Assembly (NCBI RefSeq): GCF_006715785.1
Contig: NZ_VFNX01000002.1
Coordinates: 744,001-808,000, forward strand
DNA: 64,000 nucleotides
Reading direction: 5' to 3'
From: Streptomyces puniciscabiei
Lineage (GTDB): Bacteria > Actinomycetota > Actinomycetes > Streptomycetales > Streptomycetaceae
Within the stretch, counting starts at the first letter, position 1. Each line of letters starts with the position of its first letter. Below the pieces are notes generated by a model. It was not told the origin of the DNA. It saw nothing but the letters and a program-made list of their open reading frames with translations, and searched no databases. A program made the position numbers and the translations under genes. Shown in pieces: positions 32,294-59,518 of the stretch.

Positions 32294-33154
32294 TCACCGG
32301 GCCAGCCGGCCGAGCAGTGAGGAGGCCGCCGCGATGCCGAGCGCGGAGGCCACCGCGAGGACGGCGAAGTCGGTGCCGAGGTGCGCGGGCGTGCCGAGCA
32401 GCAGGCCGCGCAGGGCGTCGACCTGATAGCTCAGCGGGTTCACCGTGCTGACGGCCTGCAGCCAGCCCGGCATCACCGAGACGGGGTACAGGGCGTTGGA
32501 GCCGAAGAACAACGGCATCGTGATCGCCTGCCCGAAGCCCATCAGCCGGTCGCGGCTGAGCACGATGCCGGCGATGGTCATCGACAGGCAGGAGAAGAAC
32601 GCGGAGGCGAGGACCACGGCGAGGGCGACGCCGAGCAGCTTCAGCGGGTTCCAGGTCAGGGCGACACCGAGCAGGGCGGCGATGACGATCACGACGATCG
32701 CCTGGATCAGCGACTTCACCCCGGCGGCGAACGCCTTGCCGGTGATCAGTGCCGAACGCGGGGTCGGGGTGACGAGGAGCTTGTTCAGGATGCCCGCGTC
32801 GCGCTCCCAGATGATCTGGATGCCGTAGAAGATCGCGATGAACATCGCCGACTGGGCGATGATGCCGGGCGCCATGAAGTCGATGTACGGGACGCCGCCG
32901 GTGGGTATCGCCCGGATCCGGGTGAAGGTCTGACCGAAGATCAGCAGCCACAGGGCGGGCTGGACCGCGCGGGTGTACAGCTCGGTACGGTCGTGCCGCA
33001 GCTTCTGCAGCTCGACGGCGCACATGGCGACGACCCGGGCGGGCAGCAGCCGCCAGCCGGCGCGCGGCACGGGCGGGCGGAGCAGCAGGGCGGTGTCGCT
33101 GCCGGGCGTGCGGTCAGCCGACGCGGCGCGCGGTGCGGCGGGTGCTGCGGACAT
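32294..33154 (-). CDS. ABC-2 type transporter permease (DrrB-like)
   Basis: A 286-residue membrane protein with six hydrophobic segments. FMAPGIIAQSAMFIAIFYGIQIIWERDAGILNKLLVTPTPR is the typical ABC-2 permease signature, and PLFFGSNALYPVSVMPGWLQAV the conserved element before the last helix. It pairs with the ATPase encoded immediately upstream to export drugs, lipids or polymers, as DrrAB does for daunorubicin. Its GTG/ATG-proximal region overlaps the end of the ATPase gene by 41 bases, so translation is coupled. Confidence 0.9.
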   Translation of the reverse strand: MSAAPAAPRAASADRTPGSDTALLLRPPVPRAGWRLLPARVVAMCAVELQKLRHDRTELYTRAVQPALWLLIFGQTFTRIRAIPTGGVPYIDFMAPGIIAQSAMFIAIFYGIQIIWERDAGILNKLLVTPTPRSALITGKAFAAGVKSLIQAIVVIVIAALLGVALTWNPLKLLGVALAVVLASAFFSCLSMTIAGIVLSRDRLMGFGQAITMPLFFGSNALYPVSVMPGWLQAVSTVNPLSYQVDALRGLLLGTPAHLGTDFAVLAVASALGIAAASSLLGRLAR

Positions 33155-34721
33155 CGCGGAAACCTCCTCCGGAGTGGTCGTCGAGGCCGCTGCCGGCGAC
33201 GTCGCGGAAGACGTCCTCCAGCGTGGGCAGAGTGTCGGTGCCCTGGCGTTCGGCGAGGTCGCGGCGCAGCTCGGCCGGGGTGCCGAGGGCGCGGAGGCGG
33301 CCGCGGTGCATCAGGCCGACGCGGTCGCAGTACTGGTCGGCCTCGTCCATGTAGTGGGTGGTGACGAGGACGGTCATGCCGGTGGCCGCGCGGACGGCGT
33401 TGATGTGCTCCCAGACGCCGGTACGGGCGATGGGGTCGAGTCCGATGGTCGGCTCGTCGAGGATCAGCAGCCTGGGCGCGCTGACCAGCGCCTGGGCCAG
33501 CTCCAGGCGACGGACCATGCCGCCGGAGTAGGTCCCGGCGAGCCGGTCGGCGGCGTCCGTGAGCCCGACGGCGGTCAGCGCCTGGCCGACCCGTTCGGCA
33601 CGCTCGCGGCGGGGCACGTCGAAGACCCGGGCGAACAGGGCCACGTTCTCCCGGCCGGTGAGCCCGCTGTCGGCGGACAGCTGCTGCGGGACGTAGCCGA
33701 GCAGCCGGCGCACCGCCATCCGCTCCTTCGCCGCGTCGTGCCCGAACACACCGACCATGCCGGCCGGGACCGGCAGGAGGGTGGTGATGCAGCGGATGGC
33801 GGTGGTCTTCCCGGCCCCGTTGGGACCGAGCAGCCCGAACACCTCCCCCTCCCGAACGGCCAGGTCGAGCCCGTCGACGGCAAGCGTGTCACCGAAGGCG
33901 TAGGCGAGCCGGGTACAGCTGACGGCATCGGCGACCGGGGTGCCGGTGGGCCCGGTGCGCGCGACTTCGGCGGCTGCATCGACGCCAGGGGCGGCCTCGG
34001 GTTGCGCGACTTCGGCGGCTGCATCGACGGCGTCGGTGACCGGGGCGGGGGCGGCTGCGGGACGCGCGGCTTCGGTCGGTGGGGCAGTGGCGGCGGATCC
34101 GGTGGCCGCCTCGCCGGTTCCGGCGGAGCCGGTGGCTGCCCCGGGGCCTTCGGTGGACCGGCCAGGGGCCGCACCGACGCCGCCGACTGCGGCAGGTACG
34201 TCGACGGGGGCGGGGGTGGCTGCGGGACGCGCGGCTTCGGTCGGTGGGGCAGTGGCGGCGGATCCGGAGGCCGCCTCGCCGGTTCCGGCGGAGCCGGTGG
34301 CTGTTCCGGGGGCGTCGGTGGACCGGCCAGGGGCCGCACCGACGCCGCCGACTGCGGCAGGTACGTCGACGGGGGCGGGGGTGGCTGCGGGACGCGCCGC
34401 TTCGGCCGGTGGGGCAGTGGCGGCGGATCCGGAGGCCGCCTCGCCGGTTCCGGCGGAGCCGGTGGCTGCCCCGGGGCCTTCGGTGGACCGGCCAGGGGCC
34501 GCACCGACGCCGCCGACTGCGGCAGGTACGTCCGGGGTGTTCGCGGCGTCACCAGTGGTGCCGGTGGTGTCCACCCCATCGCCGGGGCTGTCGGCGGTCT
34601 CCACATCGCCAGGGGCGTCACTGGTGCCGACGGCGGCTACCGGGGCGGCAGCGGTGCCGGCGTCGCCGCGGCTGTCCGTGGGGCCGGCGTCGTCGGGGGT
34701 GTCCGTGCTGTCCCTCGTCAT
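33114..34721 (-). CDS. ABC transporter ATPase (DrrA-like) with repetitive N-terminal extension
   Basis: A 535-residue protein, about 200 residues longer than usual. The ABC domain begins near residue 265: Walker A GPNGAGKTT at about 299-307, Q-loop YVPQQ, signature YSGGMVRRLEL, Walker B LLILDEPTIGLD and switch VTTHYMDEAD. The front is Ala/Pro/Gly-rich and contains three almost identical 55-residue repeats (residues 64-118, 119-173, 174-228). Codon third positions there are G/C-rich, so translation is plausible, though a downstream start cannot be excluded. It energises the permease at 32294-33154. Confidence 0.88.
   Translation of the reverse strand: MTRDSTDTPDDAGPTDSRGDAGTAAAPVAAVGTSDAPGDVETADSPGDGVDTTGTTGDAANTPDVPAAVGGVGAAPGRSTEGPGAATGSAGTGEAASGSAATAPPAEAARPAATPAPVDVPAAVGGVGAAPGRSTDAPGTATGSAGTGEAASGSAATAPPTEAARPAATPAPVDVPAAVGGVGAAPGRSTEGPGAATGSAGTGEAATGSAATAPPTEAARPAAAPAPVTDAVDAAAEVAQPEAAPGVDAAAEVARTGPTGTPVADAVSCTRLAYAFGDTLAVDGLDLAVREGEVFGLLGPNGAGKTTAIRCITTLLPVPAGMVGVFGHDAAKERMAVRRLLGYVPQQLSADSGLTGRENVALFARVFDVPRRERAERVGQALTAVGLTDAADRLAGTYSGGMVRRLELAQALVSAPRLLILDEPTIGLDPIARTGVWEHINAVRAATGMTVLVTTHYMDEADQYCDRVGLMHRGRLRALGTPAELRRDLAERQGTDTLPTLEDVFRDVAGSGLDDHSGGGFRDVRSTRRTARRVG
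34038..34532. repeat. Three tandem 165-base repeats inside the ABC ATPase gene
   Basis: Units 34532-34368, 34367-34203 and 34202-34038 (minus-strand order) each encode a 55-residue block starting DVPAAVGGVGAAPGRST. They differ at only a few codons (for example EGPGAAT/DAPGTAT). The unit is an exact multiple of three, so copy-number changes would keep the frame. Confidence 0.9.
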
Positions 34722-35338: not shown

Positions 35339-35364
35339 GTTTTGTGATGTCCGAGAGCGGGAAA
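35339..35364 (+). promoter_or_regulatory. SigB/F-type promoter candidate of the first sigma factor gene
   Basis: GTTT (35339-35342), a 16-base spacer and GGGAAA (35359-35364) resemble the GTTT / GGGTAT form used by SigB-class sigma factors. The same arrangement (GTTT-N14-GGGGCA) lies at the matching place before the second sigma factor gene. Transcription would begin near 35371, just before the shared 18-base element. This suggests autoregulation or cross-regulation. Confidence 0.45.
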
Positions 35365-35374
35365 AGGACGAACA

Positions 35375-35392
35375 GTGCTTCGGACCGGAGGC
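35375..35392 (+). promoter_or_regulatory. 18-base leader element shared by both sigma-factor genes (copy 1)
   Basis: GTGCTTCGGACCGGAGGC at 35375-35392 recurs exactly, on the minus strand, at 57915-57898. It begins 10 bases after the -10 candidate (11 in copy 2). A second shared box, TCCCCCTTTC (35431-35440), lies 38 bases further on. Confidence 0.75.
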
Positions 35393-35473
35393 ACGTCCGT
35401 GGGAGGCGGCTCTTTGCCGCACGCCCCGCTTCCCCCTTTCCCGGTCCGAGCGCGCCTCCCACGGTGTCTGTAG
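35375..35473 (+). CDS. Possible upstream leader ORF (32 codons) of the first sigma factor gene
   Basis: Starting at GTG 35375, which follows AAAGGA by about 7 bases, 32 codons run to TAG 35471-35473, 30 bases before the sigma factor ATG. The peptide begins VLRTGG and contains LPPFPVR. The second sigma factor gene has a 31-codon counterpart that also begins VLRTGG. After the first six codons the peptides barely match, so the shared sequence may act as DNA or RNA rather than protein. Confidence 0.35.
   Translation: MLRTGGTSVGGGSLPHAPLPPFPVRARLPRCL
35380..35464 (+). promoter_or_regulatory. Two crossing helices (possible pseudoknot) in the sigma factor leader
   Basis: TCGGACCGG (35380-35388) is complementary to CCGGTCCGA (35441-35449), and CCGTGGGAGGCG (35397-35408) to CGCCTCCCACGG (35453-35464). 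The order A-B-A'-B' means the helices either form a pseudoknot or exclude one another. The first helix uses the shared 18-base element. The second helix ends 39 bases before the ATG. Confidence 0.5.
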
Positions 35474-35503
35474 ATCCAGCACCTGCTGAGAGAGGTGCGC
35501 ACC

Positions 35504-36295
35504 ATGCGTGTCACCGGCAGTACCACCTCCCATCCCCACGACGACGCCCCCGACACGGCGGAGTCCTTCGAGCGGCTCGCGACGCTGCCCGACGGCCCCG
35601 AGCGGCGGGCGTTGCGTGATGAACTGGTCCAGCTGTGGCTGCCCATGGCCGAGCGGATCGCCGTGCGGTTCCGTGGCCGCGGGGAGACGCTGGAGGACCT
35701 GTACCAGGTGGCCGCCCTCGGCCTGGTGAAGGCCGTCGACCACTACGATCCCGGGCGGGGCCGCGCCTTCGAGGCGTACGCCGTGCCCACCATCACCGGT
35801 GAGATCAAGCGCCACTTCCGCGACCACATGTGGACGCTGCACGTGCCGCGCCGGGTGCAGGACCTGCGCAACCGGGTCCGCGCCGCCGGCAAGGAACTGG
35901 CCCAGAGCACTTCGGGGCGCCCGCCCACCGTGGCGGAGATCGCCGCCCACACCCGGCTCACCGAGGACGAGGTGCGCACCGGCATGGAAGCGCTCGAGTG
36001 CTTCTCCGCGCTGTCCCTGGACGCCGAGGTGGCCGGCACCGACGGCTACGCGCTCGGGGACTCCCTGGGCGGCCTCGACCCCGGATACGAGCTCGTGATC
36101 GACCGCACCGCCGTCCGGCCCTGTCTGGAGGCACTGCCCGAACGCGAGCGCATCATCCTCTACCTGCGGTTCTTCCGTGGGATGACGCAGAGCCGGATCG
36201 CCCAGCAGCTGGGCATCTCACAGATGCACGTCTCACGGCTGCTCAGCAGCTGCTTCGACCGGCTGCGCGAGGAACTGCTCGCCGAGGTCCGCTGA
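35504..36295 (+). CDS. RNA polymerase sigma factor, SigB/SigF/SigG family
   Basis: A 263-residue group 3 sigma factor for stress or development. Region 2 shows LWLPMAERIAVRFRGRGETLEDLYQVAALGLVKAVDHYDP; region 3 follows at PPTVAEIAAHTRLTEDEV; region 4 has the helix-turn-helix MTQSRIAQQLGISQMHVSRLLS. The typical SigB N-terminus is short and unstructured. ATG 35504 has GAGAGG 8 bases upstream. It is closely similar to the gene at 56891-57745 (both contain HDDAPDTA near the start), making them paralogues that also share leader elements. No anti-sigma gene adjoins it. Confidence 0.93.
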   Translation: MRVTGSTTSHPHDDAPDTAESFERLATLPDGPERRALRDELVQLWLPMAERIAVRFRGRGETLEDLYQVAALGLVKAVDHYDPGRGRAFEAYAVPTITGEIKRHFRDHMWTLHVPRRVQDLRNRVRAAGKELAQSTSGRPPTVAEIAAHTRLTEDEVRTGMEALECFSALSLDAEVAGTDGYALGDSLGGLDPGYELVIDRTAVRPCLEALPERERIILYLRFFRGMTQSRIAQQLGISQMHVSRLLSSCFDRLREELLAEVR

Positions 36296-36302
36296 GCCCG
36301 CA

Positions 36303-36326
36303 GAGGCCTCACTCCTGCGAGGCCTC
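36303..36326. terminator. Bidirectional terminator between the sigma factor and ANTAR genes
   Basis: GAGGCCTC occurs at 36303-36310 and 36319-36326 with an 8-base loop; the two copies pair with each other. It lies between convergent genes and overlaps the last codons of the ANTAR gene. Confidence 0.55.
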
Positions 36327-36623
36327 GGGCACCTGAGTGGGGCCGTACCGGTCCAGAGCGTCCTCCAGCGCGGTCAGCACATCGGACGGGATCTCGCCGC
36401 GGCGGCCCCAGATGAGGATCAGCTCAGCGATGTTGCGCAGCTTGATGTTGGTGTGCTGGGAGACCTCCCTCAGTACTTCCCAGCCCTCGTCCGGCGTCAC
36501 CCTGCCCAGGGCCACCACCATCCCGATCGCCTGGTCGACGACCGCGTGGGAGATCACGGCCTCCTTCATCTGGTCGACCTCGGCCTGCAACTCGGAGATC
36601 CGCTCGGACTCGCTCGCGCCCAT
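36309..36623 (-). CDS. ANTAR-domain protein
   Basis: A 104-residue protein. A short coiled-coil start (SERISELQAEVDQMKEAV) leads into an ANTAR RNA-binding domain: VDQAIGMVVALGRVTPDEGWEVLREVSQHTNIKLRNIAELIL. ANTAR domains bind paired RNA hairpins to prevent transcription termination. There is no GAF or receiver domain, so the sensing partner must be separate. ATG 36623; the open frame extends 12 codons upstream. Its RNA target is unknown. Confidence 0.85.
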   Translation of the reverse strand: MGASESERISELQAEVDQMKEAVISHAVVDQAIGMVVALGRVTPDEGWEVLREVSQHTNIKLRNIAELILIWGRRGEIPSDVLTALEDALDRYGPTQVPEASQE

Positions 36624-36642
36624 GCCCCCATCGTGCTCGCCT

Positions 36643-36668
36643 GCCTGGACCGGTGCCACCGCGGGTAC
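36643..36668 (+). promoter_or_regulatory. SigB-type promoter candidate of the VOC gene
   Basis: GCCT (36643-36646), 16 bases, GGGTAC (36663-36668) fits GNNT-N14-16-GGGTAC/T. The start would lie near 36675, giving a leader of about 77 bases. A sigma factor gene of the right class is 350 bases away. Confidence 0.4.
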
Positions 36669-56890: not shown

Positions 56891-57745
56891 TCACGCCGTG
56901 CCGGGCCCGTACGCGCGCCGGCCCATGGCCTCGTCGCGGACCCGGGCGCAGCTGCGGCTGATCAGCCGGGAGACGTGCATCTGGGAGATGCCCAGCTGGT
57001 CGGCGATGCGGCTCTGCGTCATGTCCTCGAAGAACCGCATGTAGAGGATGGCCCGTTCCCGTTCGGGCAGTCGGCGCAGCCCTTCCTTGGCGGCCTCGCG
57101 GTCGACCACGACGTCGTACGAGGTGTCCGCCGCTCCGAGGGTGTCGGCGAGGCTGTAGCCGTCCTCCCCGCCGGCCAGTTCGGCGTCCAGCGACAGGGTG
57201 CTGAAGCTCTCCAGCGCCTCCATGCCCGCACTGACCTCCTCCTCGCTGAGGCCCGTGTGGGCGGCCAGGGCGGTGACGGTGGGTTCGGGGCTGCCGGGGT
57301 GCTGGGTGAGCTCGCGGCGGGCCACGCGCACCCGGTTGCGCAGTTCCTGCACCCGGCGCGGCACCCTCAGGGCCCACATCCGGTCCCGGAAGTGCCGCTT
57401 GACCTCGCCGGTGATGGTCGGCACGGCGTAACTCTCGAAGGCCCCGCGGGACGGGTCGTACCGGTCGACGGCCTTGACCAGCCCGAGCGCCGCCACCTGC
57501 CGCAGGTCCTCGACGGACTCGCCGCGGTCGCGGAAGCGGCCGGCGATCCGGTGGGCCATGGGCAGCCAGGCGGCGACGAGTTCGTCGCGTACGGCGTCCC
57601 GCTCGGGGCCGTCCTCCAGCTCCGCCAGCCGGTCGAACAGCGCGGCGGTGTCGGGGGCGTCGTCATGGGACCGCCGCGCCGGAGCTGCGGCGGCGGAGTC
57701 CGTGGTGGGCGTGCCGGGACGGCTTGTCGACATGTCGGTCAGCAT
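56891..57745 (-). CDS. RNA polymerase sigma factor, SigB/SigF/SigG family (second copy)
   Basis: A 284-residue sigma factor paralogous to the one at 35504. Region 2 reads AWLPMAHRIAGRFRDRGESVEDLRQVAALGLVKAVDRYDP; region 4 ends MTQSRIADQLGISQMHVSRLISRSC. ATG 57745 has AGGAG 8 bases upstream. The gene for an RsbW-like protein lies 233 bases upstream on the same strand, its probable anti-sigma partner. The leader contains the promoter-like pair, the 18-base element and the TCCCCCTTTC box shared with the other sigma gene. Confidence 0.93.
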   Translation of the reverse strand: MLTDMSTSRPGTPTTDSAAAAPARRSHDDAPDTAALFDRLAELEDGPERDAVRDELVAAWLPMAHRIAGRFRDRGESVEDLRQVAALGLVKAVDRYDPSRGAFESYAVPTITGEVKRHFRDRMWALRVPRRVQELRNRVRVARRELTQHPGSPEPTVTALAAHTGLSEEEVSAGMEALESFSTLSLDAELAGGEDGYSLADTLGAADTSYDVVVDREAAKEGLRRLPERERAILYMRFFEDMTQSRIADQLGISQMHVSRLISRSCARVRDEAMGRRAYGPGTA

Positions 57746-57782
57746 GCGGAATCGCTCCTGAGACGTGGTGCCGGGCACACGG

Positions 57783-57819: not shown

Positions 57820-57915
57820 TCAGGGGTCGCCGCGGGTCGCTCGCCCGGTCCGCCGAAAGGGGGACCCAGGCGGTCCTACGGTTCCCGCTGGGCGCGCGCC
57901 TCCGGTCCGAAGCAC
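57820..57915 (-). CDS. Possible upstream leader ORF (31 codons) of the second sigma factor gene
   Basis: GTG 57915 to TGA 57822-57820 gives a 31-residue peptide beginning VLRTGG and containing PPGSPFRR. It is the counterpart of the 32-codon ORF before the other sigma factor gene, with start at the same distance from the -10 candidate. It ends 74 bases before the sigma ATG. A GGGGCAGGCGG stretch upstream could bind ribosomes weakly. Whether it is translated is unknown. Confidence 0.35.
   Translation of the reverse strand: MLRTGGARPAGTVGPPGSPFRRTGRATRGDP
57898..57915 (-). promoter_or_regulatory. 18-base leader element shared by both sigma-factor genes (copy 2)
   Basis: Exact minus-strand copy of the element at 35375-35392. 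The companion box TCCCCCTTTC is at 57864-57855, 33 bases further on. The crossing helices seen in copy 1 cannot form here, so the DNA or RNA primary sequence itself seems conserved. Confidence 0.75.
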
Positions 57916-57926
57916 GAGTTTCCGCC

Positions 57927-57950
57927 TGCCCCTTGCTCCGGGGGACAAAC
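57927..57950 (-). promoter_or_regulatory. SigB/F-type promoter candidate of the second sigma factor gene
   Basis: On the minus strand GTTT (57950-57947), 14 bases, GGGGCA (57932-57927). It lies 11 bases before the shared 18-base element, as in copy 1 (10 bases). The -10 part is a poor match to GGGTAT, but the parallel placement gives it weight. Confidence 0.4.
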
Positions 57951-57978: not shown

Positions 57979-58413
57979 TCAGCGCAGCGGTACGACGGCC
58001 GTGATGCGCTTGCCCCCGCAGGGCAGCTGCGCGACCCGGACGTCCCGTGACAGGCGGCAGACGATGGGCCAGCCACGGCCGCCCGGGCGGGTGCGGCCGC
58101 GGTCGTCGCCGGGCGGGGCGACCACCGGCAGCTCGTCGCTGCGGTCGCTGACCGACACCCGTACGCCGCCGGAGTCGACGTCGACGTCGAACCCGGTGAT
58201 GCCGCCGCCGTGCAGGATGGCGTTGGTGGTGAGCTCCGAGGTGACCAGCAGGGCGTCCTCCATGGCCGCGGCATCGCAGCAGATGGCACATGCCCGGCAC
58301 CGCTCGGCCACCACGCGCCGCACGGTTCTGCGGGCGTCGGCCGGCCGGCACGGCACTCGGCGGCGAGCTTCCCGCAGGGTCCCGGAGCAGTTGGTCCGGT
58401 GCTTGTCGCGCAT
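57979..58413 (-). CDS. RsbW-like ATP-binding protein, probable anti-sigma factor
   Basis: A 144-residue GHKL ATPase domain. DALLVTSELTTNAILHGGG is the N box; VSVSDRSDELP the G1 region; GGRGWPIVCRLSRDV the G2 box. The middle part has an unusual cluster of cysteines (ERCRACAICCDAA), which could bind metal or sense redox state. ATG 58413 has GGAGGAAGGG just upstream; the frame opens 24 codons earlier. It precedes the second sigma factor gene on the same strand, so the pair probably forms a partner-switching unit. Confidence 0.87.
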   Translation of the reverse strand: MRDKHRTNCSGTLREARRRVPCRPADARRTVRRVVAERCRACAICCDAAAMEDALLVTSELTTNAILHGGGITGFDVDVDSGGVRVSVSDRSDELPVVAPPGDDRGRTRPGGRGWPIVCRLSRDVRVAQLPCGGKRITAVVPLR

Positions 58414-58537
58414 CCCTTCCTCCTTGAGCGATGCCCGGTTTGCCAAGCTCTCTCCTTTTCGCCTGACCTTTTCCGGAGCTGTCAAACACGCTCGGTGCCG
58501 GTGTCATCACCGCGGCCTCGCCGGGTACCCGGCGCGT

Positions 58538-58780: not shown

Positions 58781-58890
58781 CCGGCTACCGATTGGTAGAA
58801 CACCCGCGAGATGGTTTATCGTTCATACATACGTGATGCCGGAGGTGACCGGAACCGTCCTTCCTCCCTGCCTGGCATCACCGCAGACGG

Positions 58891-58920
58891 CCCTGGCTGG
58901 CTTCCCCCGTCCAGCCAGGG
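58891..58920 (+). terminator. Hairpin between the small helical protein and cNMP-binding genes
   Basis: CCCTGGCTGG (58891-58900) pairs perfectly with CCAGCCAGGG (58911-58920) around a 10-base loop, followed by CTTCTTG. Probably an intrinsic terminator, or a leader structure if transcription of the next gene starts in the AT-richer patch at 58810-58835. Confidence 0.65.
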
Positions 58921-59059
58921 CTTCTTGCTGCCCGGAACCGGCTGTGGACCGGGCCCCGCGGCGAAATCCGCGTCCCCCGAGGTGCCCGCGGGGGCGGCAG
59001 CGGCTGAAATGGGCTTAGCGAAAGCACCCGCGAACCGCCTCGGCGAGGAGCCCCGCGCC

Positions 59060-59518
59060 ATGACCAAAGCGATAAAACTGCTGACCGCCCTGCCCCAGGC
59101 ACAGCGCGAGCGCCTGATGGAACTGGCCAAGGAGGTCTCGTTCCCCGAGGACACCCGCATCTTCGAGGCGGGCGGCACCGCCGACCGGTTCTGGGTGATC
59201 CGTTCCGGCGCGGTCCACCTGGACCAGCAGGTCACCTCCCGGCAGCGGGTCACCGTGGCCACGCTCGGCGCGGGCGACATGCTCGGCTGGTCCTGGCTGT
59301 TCCCGCCGTACCAGTGGGACTTCGGCGCGGTGGCCTTCACCGACGTGCGCGCCTACGAGTTCGACGGGCCCTCGGTGCTCGCGCTGTGCGTGGAGGACCC
59401 GCTGCTCGGGCTGTCGCTGGTGCGGACGGTGGCCGAGATCCTCGCCCACCGCCTGGAGACGACCCGGGGCAAGCTGATGGACCAGTACACGAGCCGACGG
59501 CGTCCCGGCCTGATCTGA
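59060..59518 (+). CDS. Cyclic-nucleotide-binding-domain protein without DNA-binding domain
   Basis: A 152-residue single CNB domain. PEDTRIFEAGGTADRFWVIRSGAVHLDQQV and LGAGDMLGWSWLFPPYQWDFGAVA form the beta roll; the phosphate-binding cassette near GDMLGWSWLF lacks the usual Arg and Gly-Glu pair, so it may not bind cAMP. The C-terminal helix (LSLVRTVAEILAHRLETTRGKLM) resembles the Crp dimer helix but no helix-turn-helix follows. ATG 59060. It may sense another ligand or act as an adaptor. It converges with the MFS gene with a 1-base gap. Confidence 0.8.
   Translation: MTKAIKLLTALPQAQRERLMELAKEVSFPEDTRIFEAGGTADRFWVIRSGAVHLDQQVTSRQRVTVATLGAGDMLGWSWLFPPYQWDFGAVAFTDVRAYEFDGPSVLALCVEDPLLGLSLVRTVAEILAHRLETTRGKLMDQYTSRRRPGLI

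Follow-up and report, generated by a model that had tools for sequence, protein, structure and literature searches.

The targets of CsrA/RsmA are protein-bound mRNA hairpins with GGA in the loop, and the target RNAs of ANTAR proteins are composed of two hairpins whose hexaloops carry A1 and G4; we know of no CsrA in Streptomyces. Within this genus, the dauA motif is a leader RNA that precedes a STAS (anti-sigma antagonist) gene, as presented in the available part of PMC11109978. According to the available text of PMC8346170, osmotic stress and differentiation in Streptomyces are governed by SigB-like sigma factors, accounts of whose control centre on promoters and anti-sigma partner switching, and the rsbA-sigB arrangement of S. 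coelicolor contains an internal promoter, sigBp1.

The window studied here, a stretch of 64,000 nucleotides of Streptomyces puniciscabiei DNA, carries two genes for SigB/F/G-type sigma factors, gene 1 (35504..36295, plus strand; TIGR02980, E 2.8e-83) and gene 2 (56894..57745, minus strand; TIGR02980, E 6.8e-82). A sequence-only reading of this DNA had reported that both leaders share an exact 18-mer, which follows a promoter-like pair of GTTT and GGG and opens a GTG frame, and all of this can be read directly: the 18-mer is present twice, at 35375-35392 (+) and 57898-57915 (-), GTTT and GGG precede both copies, and the two GTG frames are 32 and 31 codons long. With up to 3 mismatches allowed, 3 sites were found in the window against 0.28 expected, which rules out chance. 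The promoters as read are of the SigB type, with -35 GTTTTG, a 14-nt spacer and -10 GGGAAA for gene 1 (35339..35364, +), and -35 GTTTGT, a 13-nt spacer and -10 GGGCAG for gene 2 (57926..57950, -); 10 bases lie between each -10 box and its 18-mer. A recent duplication was considered for the two genes and rejected, because their proteins are 69% identical (over 249 residues), fall in separate well-supported tree groups, and have leaders that diverged outside the two helices P1 and P2 described below; nor do the leaders align continuously, as would be seen after a duplication without selection. Directly upstream of the gene-2 leader lies a HATPase_c_2 gene (57979..58485, -; PF13581, E 4.6e-10), whose product matches the RsbA-family model weakly, under the cut-off of that model, and which to judge from its sequence probably encodes an RsbW/RsbA-like anti-sigma factor. 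A gene for a cyclic-nucleotide-binding domain protein (58811-59518, +) is divergent from it. As well, an ANTAR-domain protein gene (36309-36659, -) is convergent to gene 1 and occupies the same position in 17 of 80 named loci, and a protein that by eye resembles an ABC-transporter ATP-binding protein, and whose N-terminal part repeats VPAAVGGVGAAPGRST-type units over a long stretch, is encoded at 33114-34721 (-).

In the 9.1-Mb source genome, the inner 15-mer occurs exactly 3 times, namely at the two window sites and at one place without promoter or sigma gene. Across the genus, the exact 15-mer was found in 74 of 150 Streptomyces genomes, with at least 105 places listed against 3 for the reversed pattern. 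Among the 93 listed places that were read, 73 stand ahead of a SigBFG gene, and 72 of these 73 also have GTTT-N-GGG upstream; 2 others combine the promoter with a different gene, and 18 have neither promoter nor sigma gene. A looser pattern, applied to a named collection (at least 120 stretches, 80 loci given), returned 79 Streptomyces loci, and 77 of the 80 precede a sigma gene; the three exceptions are L250, where the sigma coding sequence lies slightly further downstream, L225, with a DUF5133 gene instead, and L259, from a Bacteroidia bin and without promoter, which was taken as a chance match. With 77 of 80 named loci and 73 of 93 exact genus places standing before a sigma gene, the 18-mer places are not scattered apart from such genes, and the earlier suggestion that the 18-mer, which looks selected, is an element of SigB/F/G leaders is supported. 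When 296 genomes from the class were scanned, exact GTGCTTCGGANNNGAGGCRC matches were restricted to Streptomyces, and of 18 one-mismatch places outside the genus the 15 checked (L419-L433) all lacked a sigma gene behind them. Among 150 family genomes, exact GTGCTTCGGANNNGAGGCRC was also found in three further genera, and the sister-genus loci (six read, plus L178) all have the promoter and a SigBFG gene. In total, the collection comprises 236 distinct leaders that have the promoter and are followed by a SigB/F/G-type gene.

Leaders can also be approached from the protein side. In 12 genomes, P1 was present (with up to 3 mismatches) in 26 of 105 upstream regions fetched by SigBFG protein, these being 103 genes that score above the family cut-off and 2 that do not reach it, with the two window genes left out; adding the latter gives P1 at 27 of 105 SigBFG genes over the cut-off. 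All 26 P1-bearing regions fit a loose promoter pattern, and two of them (L405 and L406) lack a clear GTTT/GGG pair. Moreover, at 270 motif places with up to 1 mismatch, GTTT-N12-17-GGG was found in the sense orientation at 229 and mirrored at 1, and the last GGG starts 15-17 nt ahead of P1 in 213 of the 229 leaders with a GGG (231 examined). These promoters resemble the SigB consensus of B. subtilis, which the available text of PMC8346170 quotes for S. coelicolor promoters as GTTTAA-N12-14-GGGWAW; the starts published there lie mostly 8-11 nt past the -10 box. Taken with the spacing between GGG and P1, this published spacing would put P1 among the first transcribed bases, and we infer that transcription starts at P1 or a few bases from it.

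In a tree of 138 sigma proteins, 57 leaderless ones were split off by one branch (support 100/100, length 0.97), on the opposite side of which stand 75 leader-bearing proteins and 6 labelled leaderless, and the leader label needs 6 changes on the tree, 5 of them forced. At least 2 of these 6 labels are mislabels: the stretch of L505 starts past the leader (L369 shows the leader), and L171 was labelled leaderless owing to a one-base insertion; L489, L492, L495 and L496 are labelled leaderless on the leader side without such an explanation. On the evidence of this tree, the leader is a marker that divides one part of the SigBFG family from the rest, with some losses, and predates the split between gene 1 and gene 2. 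In addition to sigma genes, a few other genes carry the element. Promoter and P1 stand ahead of an ANTAR-like gene in L067 (Pfam score 26.1, cut-off 27.3) and of a DUF5133-type gene (PF17196) in L087; L225, from Streptomyces griseus, has a full leader at about 2434 before its DUF5133 gene, with no sigma gene following; L307 has promoter, P1 and, by eye, a P2-like helix at about 318 directly before a FUSC_2 membrane protein gene; and L456, from a sister genus, has a SigB-type promoter and P1 with one mismatch at about 1500 before an SsgA-family cell division gene. To judge from these loci, the element is portable, and its carriers have so far always stood behind a SigB-type promoter.

The variants of the 18-mer define P1 as GTGCTTC-GGANNN-GAGGCRC, a 7-bp hairpin with a six-base loop. 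In gene 1, P1 (35375..35394, +) has the stem GUGCUUC/GAGGCAC and the hexaloop GGACCG and lies at the predicted mRNA 5' end; in gene 2, reading and folding give P1 (57896..57915, -) the stem GUGCUUC/GAGGCGC and the same hexaloop. At 75 places the 18-base block is constant but for one T, and information falls on both flanks; GTG lies outside the 15-base search word, yet is kept in 74 of 75, and RC comes next (R in 75/75, C in 74/75). For pair and loop counts, 234 of the 236 leaders were kept, most of them found by patterns fixing 17 of 20 positions, so that the invariance of P1 is partly by construction. The loop is GGACCG in 139 leaders and GGACAG in 73, with 13 other loop sequences among the 234, and its first base is G in 234/234, GGA being part of most search patterns; GGCAGA in L390 is a less biased exception to the GGA loop. 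Pair 2 alternates between U-A and U-G, a U-G pair is present in 233 of the 234 leaders, pairs 4 and 6 are invariant, and pair 5 varies in 1/234. The closing pair 7-14 is mismatched in 8/234 and compensated from C-G to U-A in L316 and to G-C in L180 and L390; covariation of P1 is thus thin, its compensating changes being three single cases. The near-invariance of P1 suggests that something reads its sequence. The GGAGG of P1 was also considered as a Shine-Dalgarno (SD)-like standby site, which was rejected because GCAGG and GAAGG variants exist. In L301-L304 the P1 loop is GGANNTGAGG, which puts ATG or GTG across the loop end.

The sequence-only reading had noted that the 18-mer starts an ORF beginning VLRTGG and had named a leader peptide among the roles it offered; translation of such a peptide would control the sigma gene. 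VLRTGG is indeed readable in 158 of 170 distinct leaders, partly by choice of the search word, the codon-4 variants ACC, ACA and ACT are synonymous, and the predicted start site leaves the GTG nearly leaderless. Against this, the frame is broken by TGA at codon 5 in 4 of the 170 leaders (L301-L304), its length ranges from 4 to over 35 codons, CTT and GGC are fixed in 170/170 despite available synonyms, and codon 4 becomes Asn, Ser or Lys in three sister-genus loci. The three frames are open for at least 30 codons in 125, 132 and 141 of the 170 leaders, which do not show the conserved ORF of a leader-peptide attenuator, and a peptide of this kind is scarcely credible. The second half of the proposed bipartite box, the 10-mer TCCCCCTTTC, also falls away as a shared element: of 234 leaders, the two in this window are the ones in which it comes after the 18-mer (35431..35440, +, 38 bases after the 18-mer in gene 1; 57855..57864, -, 33 bases after it in gene 2), where it reads as an unconserved part of the P2 loop. 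CCCCCTTTC follows the 18-mer in 3 of 234 leaders, and 18-mer and 10-mer together gave 0 matches in a contig collection that may leave out the source genome; the bipartite box was rejected.

Just 3' of P1, most Streptomyces leaders pair CCGYGGGAG with CTCCCRCGG to form P2, a long-range helix whose end is about 40 nt short of the start codon. The arms in gene 1, assigned by covariation, are CCGTGGGAG (35397..35405, +) and CTCCCACGG (35456..35464, +); gene 2 has a short core, GCGGG (57884..57888, -) with, from the fold, CCCGC (57832..57836, -), which lies below the 9-base complementarity filter. That filter was passed by 48 of 79 leaders, against 21-35 in exchanged controls, and a first alignment of 47 of the 79 was made of 46 of these 48 (L035 and L094 dropped) and gene 2. 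For three of five measures, none of 500 shuffles reached the observed level, and for the other two 12 and 3 did, a result biased toward P2 since this alignment was chosen for complementarity. An independent set was drawn from 94 other sources, located through P1 or through the sigma gene, and 91 of these matched the model. In these 91 leaders, 9 of 9 P2 pairs have changes on both sides, and covariation was counted in 43 cells (47 with P1), a level reached by 0 of 500 shuffles. Own P2 arms pair in 733 of 819 cases, compared with a mean of 692 and a maximum of 704 in 2000 exchanges, and, in agreement with covariation, slid controls have 36-59% of cells paired against 91% for P2; these P2 figures are not probabilities, the independent alignment having been fitted to the model and many leaders being orthologues. 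The aligned leaders show P2 to be a covarying helix, also in sequences that were not used to define it. In sister genera P1 is present and the P2 model reaches low scores (33-45 bits in 4 genomes), which would suit a P1 that is merely a 5'-terminal stem-loop stabilising the mRNA or tuning promoter escape without carrying a signal, as would its predicted place at the extreme 5' end. A stabiliser needs a stem, not identical bases in paralogues of 69% identity and in other genera, and 79 of the 105 SigBFG upstream regions do without P1; we regard such a role as unlikely.

P2 also bears on the possibility that P1 acts as DNA, as an imperfect palindrome from +1 to +20 that is bound by a repressor or activator and controls SigB-type promoters. 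An operator would account for a near-invariant sequence at a fixed place at the start site, for a palindrome spanning 20 bp, and for the few non-sigma genes that bear promoter and P1. A palindrome could work both ways, though, and P1 keeps a single orientation (229 sense, 1 mirrored of 270); its conserved letters are asymmetric, with GGA on one side of the loop and the U-G pair in 233/234; the U-A/U-G exchange at pair 2 suits RNA pairing more than a DNA dyad; and P2 indicates selection of the leader as RNA. Strict place and orientation, asymmetric loop, wobble pairs and P2 favour RNA over a DNA operator, which on these sequences is improbable. Two properties of a structured leader RNA are present, namely compensating changes (throughout P2, and in three single cases in P1) and a fixed place between a promoter and one gene class. 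DNA operator, RNA motif, small RNA target and leader peptide had all been offered for the element: the RNA motif fits best, the operator is less likely, and the peptide did not stand. The further suggestion, that the element links both sigma factors to one signal, may apply, and a few copies head other genes.

The 3' arm of P2 contains CUCCC, which is anti-SD-like, and its 5' arm GGGAG, which is SD-like. This relation was examined in 69 of 104 leaders, those whose start codon is secure and whose P2 is clear (gene 2 is not one of them), in which the end of P2 lies 35-52 nt from the start codon in 62, 28 nt in one and 82-85 nt in six. The 3' arm pairs with its own SD at -16.46 kcal/mol, compared with -15.06 after exchange (lowest of 40: -15.91) and -12.07 kcal/mol for other windows. 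In B1, the 20 gene-1-type leaders sorted by SD region, pairing of the SD with the arm and its preceding bases is worth about -22 kcal/mol, equal to the strength of P2; own pairing there (-21.96) does not surpass what exchange among B1 leaders gives (mean -21.32, lowest -22.21), so that shared descent may explain part of the anti-SD signal. In B2, own pairing (-18.03) separates from foreign pairing (lowest exchange -17.96), and in type A, the gene-2 type, arm and SD pair at -12.2 against -11.6 for other windows, which leaves no anti-SD link; the type A examples that were folded form both P1 and P2, with the SD inside a local hairpin.

Minimum-energy folds of the 69 leaders keep P1 in 43 and P2 in 35, and pair arm with SD in 25, of which 20 have lost P1. 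For gene 1, the fold with the SD region GAGGTGCGC (35492..35500, +) paired to the arm reaches -65.7 against -58.6 with P1 and P2 formed, and the SD is 27% unpaired with P1 and P2 imposed against 17% in the minimum fold. In the SD-paired fold, the anti-SD segment GCGCGCCTC (35450..35458, +), which overlaps the P2 3' arm, pairs with the SD, and P1 bases pair with an anti-P1 segment, GGTCCGA (35443..35449, +), the complement of UCGGACC in P1. Of 36 gene-1-type leaders, 23 contain the TCCGA core, where 3.7 would be expected, and in such leaders the base before it does not track the variable loop base. Compared with shuffles, the gene 1 leader folds with z -2.23; the gene 2 leader, with z 0.13, folds no better than shuffles, and its SD, AGGAG (57755..57759, -), has a mean unpaired probability of 0.20. 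The folding models suggest an alternative fold that would hide the SD in the gene-1 type and make a two-state switch plausible for these leaders; neither folding nor arm-SD energies revealed such a fold in gene-2-type leaders.

Sequence comparison demonstrates conservation of the element, its fixed place and orientation behind the promoter, the covariation of P2 and the link to one part of the SigBFG tree. The explanation that we favour, and hold to be probable, is a conserved 5' leader RNA that acts in cis on SigB-type sigma genes and in which P1 would be read by a factor and the P2 region would gate translation. SigB-type RNA polymerase would start at or a few bases from P1, giving an mRNA that opens with GUGCUUC-GGANNN-GAGGCRC, and P1 may serve as the docking hairpin of a candidate trans-acting factor, either an RNA-binding protein or a small RNA, since its sequence is kept and not its pairing alone. 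In the gene-1 type, P2 would hold back the anti-SD arm CUCCC: with P1 and P2 formed, the SD would be less occluded and the sigma factor made, and upon opening of P1 the arm would pair with the SD and translation would be off. A small RNA pairing with the loop or 5' arm of P1 is a very doubtful alternative. The conserved 5' segment with its exposed GGA could offer a target, and S. coelicolor is reported to make an RNA antisense to sigB; in the available part of PMC5775266 this as-sigB is cis-antisense, and a pairing site would not require a fixed 3' arm. More specifically, and tentatively, P1 could be the hairpin by which an as yet undescribed RNA-binding regulator of actinobacteria recognises its targets. 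Such a regulator would set the translation of the whole family of SigB-type sigma mRNAs together, along with that of a few other stress genes, and its binding would flip gene-1-type leaders between P1 plus P2 (on) and anti-P1/anti-SD (off), a reading that we consider possible and rather less than probable.

Searches with Rfam release 15 gave no gathering-level match in the window or in 12 related loci, and none up to E 1 in both leaders. Among the papers listed by literature searches, titles and abstract beginnings describe no such element, and further papers on sigB, sigI, sigL and sigM may show leader sequences. The available parts of PMC6742748, PMC8780764, PMC11109978, PMC5775266, PMC13011467 and PMC8079986 hold no description of such a leader element, and the main text of PMC8346170 contains neither 'untranslated' nor 'leader', its available parts making no mention of a conserved leader element. 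The P1/P2 element looks like an undescribed RNA control element. A 5' hairpin that many sigma mRNAs share, even those of diverged paralogues, would bring in a layer of RNA control and could coordinate the family; if the reading with a regulator is true, this would be a post-transcriptional layer over partner-switching control. It raises the testable question of what binds GUGCUUC-GGANNN-GAGGCRC.

Compared with known systems, gene 2 resembles sigBp1 of the available text of PMC8346170 in that its promoter is flanked by an anti-sigma-type gene on one side and the sigma gene on the other. The ANTAR target RNAs were considered because an ANTAR gene adjoins gene 1 and the L067 leader has an ANTAR-like gene behind it; P1 shares with them a hexaloop hairpin, but its loop GGANNN breaks the A1/G4 rule, with position 4 variable, and this candidate was rejected, the convergent ANTAR gene being a feature of gene-1-type loci. 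Like CsrA/RsmA targets, P1 is a small hairpin close to the 5' end of mRNAs for regulators and exposes GGA in its loop, whereas its GGA lies at the 5' side of the loop and far from the SD. Among cis-regulatory leader RNAs, which include structured translational riboswitches, the dauA motif, as given in the available part of PMC11109978, is likewise a Streptomyces 5' leader whose structure can engage the SD; its three-stem junction, compared by text description only, does not appear in the folds of P1/P2 leaders. In contrast to dauA as described there, the genes behind P1/P2 are mostly sigma factors, and the core of the element is a 5'-terminal hairpin of fixed sequence.
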